A stretch of DNA of 64,000 nt. It comes from Stackebrandtia albiflava (GTDB lineage: Bacteria; Actinomycetota; Actinomycetes; Mycobacteriales; Micromonosporaceae). The translations under genes were made by a program, and so were the position numbers. Under the pieces are notes generated by a model, which worked only from the letters and a program-made list of their open reading frames with translations, searched no databases and had not been told where the DNA came from. Positions 61,188 to 64,000 of the stretch are shown here, one piece after another (the first letter of the stretch is position 1; every line of letters starts with the position of its first letter). The stretch covers positions 128,359 to 192,358 of the forward strand of contig NZ_VLLL01000005.1 in assembly GCF_007994225.1 (NCBI RefSeq), given 5' to 3'.

Positions 61188-61853
61188 TCACACCGTCATC
61201 AGCGACAGGCTCGGGTACGCGGCGAAGATCGGGCGCAACGGCTGGAAGAAGCTCGTGCCGCCGCTCGCGCAGTTCCCGGAGCCGCCAACGTGGATGCCCT
61301 GGGCGTTCCCGCCGGAGAGGTACGGCCCGCCGGTGTCACCCGGTTCGGCGCAGACGTTGGTGCGGGTGAGTCCGTAGAGGACGCCTCCGGGGTAGGAGAC
61401 CGTCTGGTTGAGCGCCTGCACGATGCCGCAGTGCCAGCCGGTGGTGCTCCCGGCCCGGCACACCGACGCGCCGACCGGCGACTGCGCTCCCCCGGTCACG
61501 GGATGGTTCGGCGCCACGTACGGAAGCGCCGTCCAGCCGGCGGCGAGATCGACCCACAGCCACGCGGCGGACTTGATCTTCACCACGCCTATGACGGATC
61601 CGTCGGCGGCGTACACGGGGTCGTTGAGCTGGCCGCAACCGCCGTACGCGAGGAAGCCGTGTCCGTAGGTGGTGTGTTCCACGGAGAAGCCGGTGGTGCA
61701 GCGCCCGGCCGTCGCGGTGCGGAAGTGCTGCCCGCCCATGATCTCCATCGCCTGAGGCGCCGCCGGTGGTGCGGCGGCGGCGAGGGTGGGCGCGAACAGC
61801 GTGAGGGCGGCGAACAGTGCGATGAGGATTCCGGAGATGCGTCGGGGAGTCAT
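61188..61853 (-). CDS. Secreted streptogrisin-like (S1E) pseudoprotease
   Basis: The 221-residue precursor has a signal peptide (about residues 1-28) and aligns with streptogrisin B over its mature length: GRCTTGFSV, VCRAGSTTGWHCG, TRTNVCAEPGD and NCASGGTSFFQPL. Conserved cysteines sit at 52/73, 132/142 and 168/195. The triad is lost: the AGHC motif reads YGGC (Gly72 for His), the NDYG motif reads SAAW (Ala for Asp), and GDSGGP reads GDTGGP (Thr174 for Ser). The long pro-region of active streptogrisins is missing too. It probably binds rather than cuts. ATG 61853 (complement) follows GAGGACACC. An ATCGATA promoter element lies upstream. Confidence 0.85.
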   Translation of the reverse strand: MTPRRISGILIALFAALTLFAPTLAAAAPPAAPQAMEIMGGQHFRTATAGRCTTGFSVEHTTYGHGFLAYGGCGQLNDPVYAADGSVIGVVKIKSAAWLWVDLAAGWTALPYVAPNHPVTGGAQSPVGASVCRAGSTTGWHCGIVQALNQTVSYPGGVLYGLTRTNVCAEPGDTGGPYLSGGNAQGIHVGGSGNCASGGTSFFQPLRPIFAAYPSLSLMTV

Positions 61854-61886
61854 GGTGTCCTCGGGTCTACGAAATGAAATAGATTG

Positions 61887-62051: not shown

Positions 62052-62444
62052 ATGACGACAGTGGCGTTCATTGACGAGACGACCGCCGGTGCGCGAAGCG
62101 ACGCCTGGCACCTGGAGATATTCGAGGAACGGCTGAGCCTGGGTGAGCTGCTTCGCCGGCGGGTCTTCCAGGAGGTCGCCGAATACAACGCGAAACAGCC
62201 GGAGGTCTTCACCGGCCTGGTGCGACCGACCGACGCCGAGGTCGCCATCAACGGATTCCGGATGCGCGAGCGCCGCCGCGTCGACCCGGAGAAGCAGTAC
62301 GAGTTGGCGGTGGAGTCGTTCGGCCGCAACGGTTTCGTCGTACTGGTGGACGACCGGCAGATCGAGGAGCTGGACGCCGAGATCGAGATCCGGCAGGGCA
62401 CCGAGATCACGTTCCTCAAACTGGTCCCACTGGTCGGTGGCTGA
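62052..62444 (+). CDS. Small uncharacterised protein coupled to DUF4132
   Basis: The 130-residue protein is acidic and soluble, with predicted helix-rich ends (EIFEERLSLGELLRRRVFQEVAEYNAK) and a central block RPTDAEVAINGFRMRERRRV. The final part looks like a short beta strand, FVVLVDDRQIEELD and TFLKLVPLVGG. I do not know its role. Its stop codon TGA shares one base with the next ATG (TGATG), so the pair is translationally coupled. TACACT seven bases upstream suggests a leaderless transcript. Confidence 0.7.
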   Translation: MTTVAFIDETTAGARSDAWHLEIFEERLSLGELLRRRVFQEVAEYNAKQPEVFTGLVRPTDAEVAINGFRMRERRRVDPEKQYELAVESFGRNGFVVLVDDRQIEELDAEIEIRQGTEITFLKLVPLVGG

Positions 62445-64000
62445 TGTCCAAGACGGTCACACCCGAGCGGATCACCGCACTCGTCGAGGCGCGGGACGTC
62501 GAGGGCCTGTACGAGGCGTTCGCACAGCTCGCCGCACACCGGTCACTGTTCTGGCTCACCGGGGAGGCCCCGCACGTCGCGGCGCTCGACGCCCTGCCCG
62601 CCGACGAACGCAAGGCGCTCGGCGACCGCCTGCACGGCAGCACCAGGTACGGCCGGTCCCGCCCGTGGCTGGTGAAGGCGCGGCTGCGCAACCTGTGCGA
62701 ACTGCTGCGGCTGCGTCACCGGGACCAGGGCGTCACCGACCGGCACCGAAAGCTCATGACGGAGGCGGCCGGTATGTGGGCGTGCTGGCCGGCGATACGG
62801 CTCCAGGACGCGCTGGAACGGTATCGCGCCGCAGGCGAACCCGTGGACCCACGTGTCGTCGCGACGGCGCGCCGGACGGCCTCGTCGGGCGACGAGAGTG
62901 ACCAGTTCCGGCTTTTCATGGCTACTTGGAGGGAACCCGTGCTCAACCCCGGTGAGGTCTGGTCCGACGAGGTCATCGCGGATCTGAAGTCCCTGCCACC
63001 CGCGTGGACCGACCTGGTCTTCCACGCCGCCACCGTCAGCGGCTCCAAACCGACCCGCAAGTGGCTGACGGAGGCGGAACGCCTCGTCGCGGCGGTCGGC
63101 CCCGGCGAGGAGACGGTGGAGCGGATCGGTCGATGGCTGGCGTTGGTCGGCGCGGGCCGTAGTGAGGCGACGACGATAGACGCCCAGTACTACGTCGACC
63201 ACATCGACTCCTACAACTCCGAGGTCGCCCGGGGTCTCGCGTGGACGCTGGGCCTCCTGCCGGGTACCGCGGAGTCGGCGCGCGTTCTGGGCGCGACGGT
63301 GGAGGCGATGCTGCGGAAGGTGCCCGGCGTCGGACCGTACTCCCCGAAGATCGCCAACGCGGCGGTGTACGCGCTGGCCGCCGCCGACGGCGAACACGCG
63401 CTGGCGCAACTGGCGCGGCTGGCGTCGACGGTCAAGTTCAAGGGCACCCTGAAGGTCATCGGCAACCAACTCGACGCCAAGGCCGAAGCCCTGGGCATCA
63501 CCCGCGACGAGATCGAGGAGATGTCCGTCCCGGGCTACGGGATGACGGAGGTCGGTCGGCTCGACCGCGAGCTGGGCGACTGCCGCGCCATACTCACCGT
63601 CACCGACGCGCCCCGCCTCACCTGGGTGAACGCCGCCGGCAAGACGGTGAAGACCGCGCCCGCCGCCGTCCGCCGCGACCACGCCGAGTCCGTGAAGGAA
63701 CTGAAGGGCCTCGTCAAGGACGTTTCCAAGATGCTCACCGCCCAGTCCGAACGACTCGACCGGCAGTTCCTCGCCTGCCGGACGTGGCGGGGCGAGACGT
63801 GGCGACGCCGGTACGCCGAGCATCCGCTGCTGGGCGTCCTCGCCCGGCGGCTCATCTGGCGGGCCGGCGACGTGGCCTTCGGCTTCGCCGAGGACGCCTG
63901 GCGCGACGTCGACGGTGAGCCGGTCGAGGTCGCCGACACCGACGAGGTGACGTTGTGGCACCCGATCGGGCGGGAGATCGACGAGATCATCGCCTGGCGC
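62444..64000 (+). CDS. DUF4132-domain protein, truncated by the window edge
   Basis: The frame from ATG 62444 is open for all 519 codons to the window end; the stop is outside. The visible part is mostly helical, with MLRKVPGVGPYSPKIANAAVYAL and VKFKGTLKVIGNQLDAKAEAL near residues 290-345. The end shows the DUF4132 pattern: RRLIWRAGDVAFGFAEDAWRDVDGEPVE and LWHPIGREI. DUF4132 (the MolR-like family) has no settled function. It is coupled to the small gene before it. Confidence 0.8.
   Translation, partial: MSKTVTPERITALVEARDVEGLYEAFAQLAAHRSLFWLTGEAPHVAALDALPADERKALGDRLHGSTRYGRSRPWLVKARLRNLCELLRLRHRDQGVTDRHRKLMTEAAGMWACWPAIRLQDALERYRAAGEPVDPRVVATARRTASSGDESDQFRLFMATWREPVLNPGEVWSDEVIADLKSLPPAWTDLVFHAATVSGSKPTRKWLTEAERLVAAVGPGEETVERIGRWLALVGAGRSEATTIDAQYYVDHIDSYNSEVARGLAWTLGLLPGTAESARVLGATVEAMLRKVPGVGPYSPKIANAAVYALAAADGEHALAQLARLASTVKFKGTLKVIGNQLDAKAEALGITRDEIEEMSVPGYGMTEVGRLDRELGDCRAILTVTDAPRLTWVNAAGKTVKTAPAAVRRDHAESVKELKGLVKDVSKMLTAQSERLDRQFLACRTWRGETWRRRYAEHPLLGVLARRLIWRAGDVAFGFAEDAWRDVDGEPVEVADTDEVTLWHPIGREIDEIIAWR

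Follow-up and report, generated by a model that had tools for sequence, protein, structure and literature searches.

The stretch of Stackebrandtia albiflava DNA analysed here, 64,000 nucleotides in length and referred to as the window, was found to carry an open reading frame running from 61853 to 61188, that is on the minus strand, which the first-pass annotation had described without giving a strand. Its product is a protein of 221 aa in which a signal-peptide-like stretch leads directly into a domain of the alpha-lytic/streptogrisin type, and its ATG lies approximately 200 bp from the ATG (62052) of a divergent neighbour gene. The features of the locus are:

61188..61853, minus strand: coding sequence of the predicted pseudoprotease, 221 aa and stop (ORF, Pfam and PDB matches, AF2 model)
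61770..61853, minus strand: signal-peptide-like N-terminus, residues 1-28 (approximate end, assigned by eye)
61191..61769, minus strand: mature two-barrel domain, residues about 29 to 221, with the fold match beginning at residue 36
61858..61862, minus strand: GAGGA, Shine-Dalgarno-like, 4 nt before the ATG, assigned by eye
62052-62444, plus strand: conserved small gene, present in four of the five genomes of the genus
62147-64000, plus strand: frame of a DUF4132-type gene, after the small gene

The protein is near neutral (7 Lys and Arg, 6 Asp and Glu) and is predicted to be exported via its signal peptide. No Pfam match was obtained in the frame of the conserved small gene (62052-62444).

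The streptogrisin-type fold proposed in the first-pass annotation was borne out by sequence and by structure. The best match of the window protein among PDB sequences was 2ea3 (E 2.8e-37), with further matches to 2oua (E 4e-37), 2pfe (E 5.3e-36) and streptogrisin B (E 1.3e-28), so that its homology is not due to chance, and Pfam Trypsin was matched at E 6e-10. An AF2 model built on a 45-row alignment (pLDDT 87.5, pTM 0.79; pLDDT 46-61 over residues 1-30) superimposed on alpha-lytic protease over 183 residues (Z 30.9, rmsd 1.4), and Foldseek matched it to 2ea3 at E 8.7e-20. A second dead homologue, L039 from Amycolatopsis pittospori, was modelled separately (28 rows, pLDDT 88.0, pTM 0.82) and gave Z 30.9 and rmsd 1.5 over 189 residues against the same protease. 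As both input alignments consisted mostly of active homologues, both models lean on these. A fold other than that of the S1 proteases was considered for the two proteins and rejected, their structure match lists being filled by S1 proteases.

The window protein thus combines the S1 double beta-barrel fold with sequence similarity to the streptogrisin/alpha-lytic protease group, which we take to be MEROPS S1E. Against 2ea3, NAPase 2oua, TFPA 2pfe, SGPB and alpha-lytic protease its model scored Z 27.9-30.9, with 39-46% identity in the structural alignments. It shares with this group six cysteines and the TNVCAEPGD and FFQP stretches but, unlike the active S1E peptidases, it is without His, Asp, Ser and Ser214 and without a pro-domain. 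With the catalytic residues His57, Asp102, Ser195 and Ser214 given in chymotrypsin numbering, alignments placed the following residues in their columns:

61638..61640, minus strand: G72, column of catalytic His57
61563..61565, minus strand: A97, column of catalytic Asp102
61332..61334, minus strand: T174, column of catalytic Ser195 (GDTGGP)
61287..61289, minus strand: V189, Ser214 column (GIHVGG), Ser in 99% of active rows

The His-Asp-Ser triad of the active S1E peptidases is therefore lost (G72, A97, T174), and the protein is a pseudoprotease in that a homologous fold remains after loss of the catalytic residues. The loss had been annotated with G72 in the His column and T174 in the Ser column, both of which were recovered in the alignments; for Asp 'Ala96 or Ala97' had been offered, of which A97 was right and A96 was not. 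The residue preceding the Ser214 column is H188, where 97% of the active rows have Thr. All six Cys (52, 73, 132, 142, 168 and 195), presumably joined in three disulphide pairs, align with those of active homologues, as had also been claimed.

A dead short copy was found in four of the five genomes of the window's genus, three of them at one locus (window, G001 and G002), and the fifth genome, G003, gave a triad-intact match only. The triad columns (His-Asp-Ser) read G-A-T in the window, H-T-N in G004, G-A-L in G001 and P-G-I in G002, the nucleophile column thus holding T, N, L and I in the four copies. That the change in the window might be a one-off mutation, an outcome against which the first-pass annotation had warned, is contradicted by the positional orthologues in two further species, which carry other triad letters. 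In G001 and G002 one neighbour of the dead gene is of GH5 type, with 72% and 67% identity to the GH5 cellulase of the window; on the other side of the dead gene, and on the opposite strand, come the conserved small gene and then the DUF4132-type gene. The window has the same gene order, with TetR and RidA-type genes in addition between GH5 and the dead gene; neither was detected in the G001 and G002 stretches. In G004 the small gene and a DUF4132-type ORF are located at 2.06 Mb and the dead copy at 5.09 Mb. Three more homologues, with intact triads and long upstream regions, are present on contig C4 of the window's own genome:

G000:C4:229901-233726: triad-intact paralogue cluster L002, L003 and L004

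At 34 of the 54 sites that are at least 95% conserved in the active frames, including all six Cys, the four genus copies are invariant, and ten of the 54, including 72, 97, 173, 174 and 188, show three or four letters. When a new triad was sought in the four copies, no invariant His, Asp, Glu, Ser or Cys was found that is absent from the same column in active homologues, and an alternative His/Asp/Ser triad in the window protein appears unlikely. His60 is invariant in the four dead copies, and is also present in the active proteases of the genus and in two family groups of other genera. The window protein has both H60 and H65; residue 65 is Asp in its three genus relatives.

The search for similar genes covered 300 genomes of the family, 6 of genus g31, 397 of the order and 394 of the class, as well as a public genome collection in which 80 loci of 522 candidates were kept. 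Searches were started from either the window protein or an alignment of 10 dead rows, and triads were read in the fetched loci, hence the sample follows similarity to the query, and the counts are of the matches listed and are no census. At least 20 short homologues without an intact triad, plus L215, were found among the loci read; L191, L214 and L215 entered the dead set after the searches of order and class genomes. Dead copies occur in three of the six g31 genomes (L095, Q-D-S; L118, Q-D-A; L110, R-D-A) and in eight of the 13 genomes of g76 for which a match was listed (L154 and L156-L162), where the triad is mostly A-G-N, L158 keeps Ser, and the letter in the Asp column varies with the alignment (Gly or Ile) and is never Asp. 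The g76 group is here named Amycolatopsis-type from its likeness to L039. Other dead copies are L039 itself, L046 (Actinosynnema sp. ALI-1.44), L191 (genus g121), L041 (Nocardiopsis chromatogenes) and L214 (family f31). Some losses are partial: L095 is without His only, L118 and L110 keep Asp, and L005 keeps His.

Net charge is positive in the Amycolatopsis-type and g31 copies. A basic charge, which group means had suggested as a clue to the ligand, was discarded as a shared trait, since the three genus relatives of the window protein carry a net negative charge and the window protein itself is close to neutral. The locus of the dead gene was conserved in all eight g76 stretches compared, and no shared neighbour was found among the three g31 loci; gene neighbourhood was likewise discarded as a clue to function, being conserved within the window's genus and within g76 but not common across groups. 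In each of the eight g76 stretches the dead gene adjoins a luciferase-like monooxygenase ORF, identified by Pfam on L184 alone:

L184:7466-8551, with equivalents in L183 and L185-L190: Amycolatopsis-type dead-gene neighbourhood (monooxygenase)

The active site was compared in nine representatives of the 15 main-group dead rows then known. The cleft positions F91, S134 and S189 are changed in all nine and S94, T188 and Q204 in eight, with Q204 kept in the window, and G172, G190, G191, G193, C168 and C195 are unchanged in all nine. G190, G191, G193 and the C168-C195 pair presumably frame the substrate pocket in this protease family. In the dead main group the residues that perform the chemistry are gone, and the presumed pocket framework stays.

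The homologues read before L191, L214 and L215 joined the dead set amount to 171 distinct frames, 151 triad-intact and 18 triad-less; L142 and one edge frame of L003 have no triad columns and were left out of both classes. The 151 are frames and not genes, and a gene may count twice, through a cut at a locus edge or a species present in two collections; the 40-residue core round GDSGG takes at least 117 distinct forms among 153 such rows. At least 150 aa lie ahead of the mature domain in 146 of the 151 triad-intact frames, and four are cut by a locus edge; L108 has 138 aa upstream together with a Pfam pro-domain, and a long upstream region is thus present in 147 of 151. The N-terminal alpha-lytic pro-domain Pro_Al_protease (PF02983), characteristic of S1E, was matched in all three active relatives of the g31 forms scanned (L120, L108 and L097) but not in the window protein, in agreement with the first-pass annotation, and all 11 short dead proteins scanned, window included (11 of the 20 known), were without a Pfam match to it. 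L041 has a long stop-to-stop frame, yet is without a Pfam pro-domain match. A pro-domain hidden upstream in another frame was set aside, because the gene has its own signal-peptide-like start about 200 bp from the divergent conserved gene.

The further claim that triad and pro-region were lost simultaneously was not supported by the wider comparison, since one homologue of family f31 has lost Asp and Ser and kept the pro-domain (PF02983, E 1.9e-11), so that the two losses can come apart:

G730:C33, 1343-2281, minus strand: L215, frame running off the contig end

L215 keeps His; its Asp, Ser and Ser214 columns are occupied by Gly, Ala and Val, respectively. This protein, whose frame is cut by the contig end, shows that the loss of the triad and that of the pro-domain are not strictly coupled, and it is possible that it represents an intermediate step toward the dead, pro-domain-less forms. 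The absence of the pro-region suggests that the dead proteins fold unaided, and the window protein would accordingly be one that folds without it.

The origin of the dead forms was analysed in trees built with the four active-site columns removed, the first including 59 of the 151 active rows with signal peptides left in, the second 58, with L143 (very long branch) omitted. The g31 copies were nested in an active group (L120, L108 and L097) in both trees with starred support, which was 100/98 and 100/97 in the second. A single origin of all 21 dead rows was rejected (AU p = 0.00016); for the 18 that remain once the g31 rows are set aside, a single origin was not rejected (p = 0.506, with a likelihood 0.20 better than that of the free tree), and at least two origins are therefore needed. 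Fifteen of these 18 rows were grouped at 91/90 in the first tree, with signal peptides in; backbone bootstrap values in the second tree were 21-40 and, since the backbone is not resolved, more than two origins are possible. Descent of the genus copies from the active type found in their own genus and in Glycomyces-like kin was disfavoured but not rejected (p = 0.079); the genus copies and that active type share H60 and a G-x-G-F loop. A wider reading, to which we give somewhat less than an even chance, is that pseudoproteases of alpha-lytic fold emerged at least two times among actinobacteria, that catalysis and pro-domain were lost together in both lines, and that such proteins, should they fold unaided, part the fold from kinetic stability and pro-region dependence, L215 being a possible step on this path.

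Selection was estimated as dN/dS by NG86, which is crude for GC-rich genes. Ten Amycolatopsis-type dead genes (45 pairs) gave dN/dS of 0.097-0.272 at dS 0.18-0.72, and six of the same genomes contributed seven active genes (21 pairs), which gave 0.008-0.275, the high values lying between two sub-types. For the same pairs of genomes the active and dead genes gave 0.021 versus 0.133 (G446-G350), 0.008 versus 0.193 (G446-G362), 0.021 versus 0.148 (G350-G550) and 0.045 versus 0.21 (G529-G362), and were alike for G380-G446 (0.17 versus 0.175). The Amycolatopsis-type dead gene is under purifying selection, weaker than that on its active kin. Values were 0.387-0.563 for the g31 dead copies (3 pairs) and 0.45-0.871 for those of the window's genus (6 pairs), the latter being near saturation and hence uninformative. 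In a crude neutral simulation that modelled no indels, 4.3% of runs retained an open frame and 0.7% retained every Cys at 0.3 substitutions per site. Selection, as first proposed for the window gene, was supported as purifying selection in the Amycolatopsis-type group (0.10-0.27) and not in the window's genus (0.45-0.87); the dead state is found in four of five genus genomes, and selection is clear solely in the former group.

The window protein is likely to be a secreted pseudoprotease that descends from a protease of the streptogrisin/alpha-lytic type, and its gene has probably been kept for a catalytically dead product with a binding role outside the cell. In the ancestral protease the catalytic residues and the folding pro-domain would have disappeared while the cysteine-rich double beta-barrel persisted, which would then have served extracellularly as a binding protein. 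The inherited substrate cleft might accommodate peptide-shaped ligands but leave them uncut. One such use would be as a decoy, drawing off protein inhibitors by which the genome's three active paralogues would otherwise be blocked. Binding via the old cleft is the mechanism we prefer, tentatively and with considerable doubt, because the pocket glycines and C168-C195 stay invariant while the residues of the chemistry drift; the cleft is nevertheless altered, and the replacement of F91, S134 and S189 in nine of nine representatives speaks against it. Against the gene being kept for binding at all, dN/dS in the genus and in g31 is compatible with weak constraint, neighbours differ between groups, and the dead gene is less constrained than the active genes.

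Two other roles for a pseudoprotease were weighed against cleft binding. The protein might use some part of its surface distinct from the old cleft to bind a polymer of the wall or surface, or a metal, which we judge unlikely: trypsin-like alpha-lytic relatives have been linked to cell-wall lysis in passages of two sources (PMC2605481; PMC12250508) and the Amycolatopsis-type and g31 copies are net positive, but the basic charge does not extend to the window's genus, and the H60/H65 pair that might hold a metal is not kept in the other three genus copies, with their Asp65. Alternatively, the dead copy might bind an active protease or its pro-domain and so tune folding or activity. Three triad-intact paralogues in the same genome would be available as partners, and the account of MamO in PMC4794232, where it promotes MamE-dependent proteolysis, offers a precedent; the dead gene, however, is on contig C1 and the active cluster on C4, and we consider this role distinctly unlikely.

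Simple decay of a gene whose frame has stayed open by chance would explain the dN/dS values (0.45-0.87 for the genus copies, 0.39-0.56 for those of g31), as well as the variation of the triad letters across all genus copies. It is made improbable by the dead copies listed by the genome searches, which have zero internal stops, by the six Cys kept in all four genus copies, by the small share of single simulated runs in which the frame stayed open or all Cys remained, and by the low dN/dS of the Amycolatopsis-type genes. A hydrolase re-wired around T174 or another set of residues is very improbable, for, even though T174 occupies the nucleophile column and the g31 copy L095, without His only, has Asp and Ser, that column holds T, N, L and I in the four genus copies, which have no invariant His, Asp, Glu, Ser or Cys beyond those in the columns of active homologues. 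A catalytically dead protein kept for binding remains the preferred reading.

Dead S1 homologues are already known. According to the relevant passages of PMC2605481, inactive homologues made up 42 of the 966 serine proteases counted across 91 genomes of prokaryotes; like the window protein, they belong to serine protease families and miss essential residues. That count covers five families, and the same passages mention no pro-domain-less alpha-lytic subgroup. MamO, as described in PMC4794232, is likewise a bacterial protein of serine-protease fold whose active site is degenerate and which has taken on a non-catalytic function; it binds metal and promotes MamE-dependent proteolysis, and pseudoproteases of magnetotactic bacteria arose independently in three taxa (PMC4794232). 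Its structure (5hma) matched the window model with Z 17.1 and 12% identity; MamO binds metal by a surface di-histidine motif. ChpG, an alpha-lytic-like secreted protein of a plant pathogen, is thought by its authors to be probably active, and the passages of PMC11290698 report that no activity was detected. A search of the open-licence literature turned up no paper on inactive homologues of alpha-lytic protease or streptogrisin that are without the pro-domain, and the recurrent combination of lost catalytic residues with a lost alpha-lytic pro-domain seems to be new.

The half-time of folding of alpha-lytic protease without its pro-region is given as about 1800 years in passages of PMC2829044, the pro-region speeding the process by about nine orders of magnitude. 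If the dead proteins fold unaided, they would be natural experiments in which the fold is parted from kinetic stability and from dependence on the pro-region, and they allow a test of whether losing self-digestion frees the fold from kinetic stability and the foldase. Their existence further suggests that, in bacteria, the scaffold of a secreted protease is reused for binding. Such homologues are easily overlooked, as Pfam Trypsin at E 0.01 misses five of the 12 scanned as whole frames, and automatic annotation may therefore overlook their kinship. The dead homologues missed are:

L148:9270-10040
L149:8645-9328
L041:4038-5567
L191:6345-7073
L215:1343-2281
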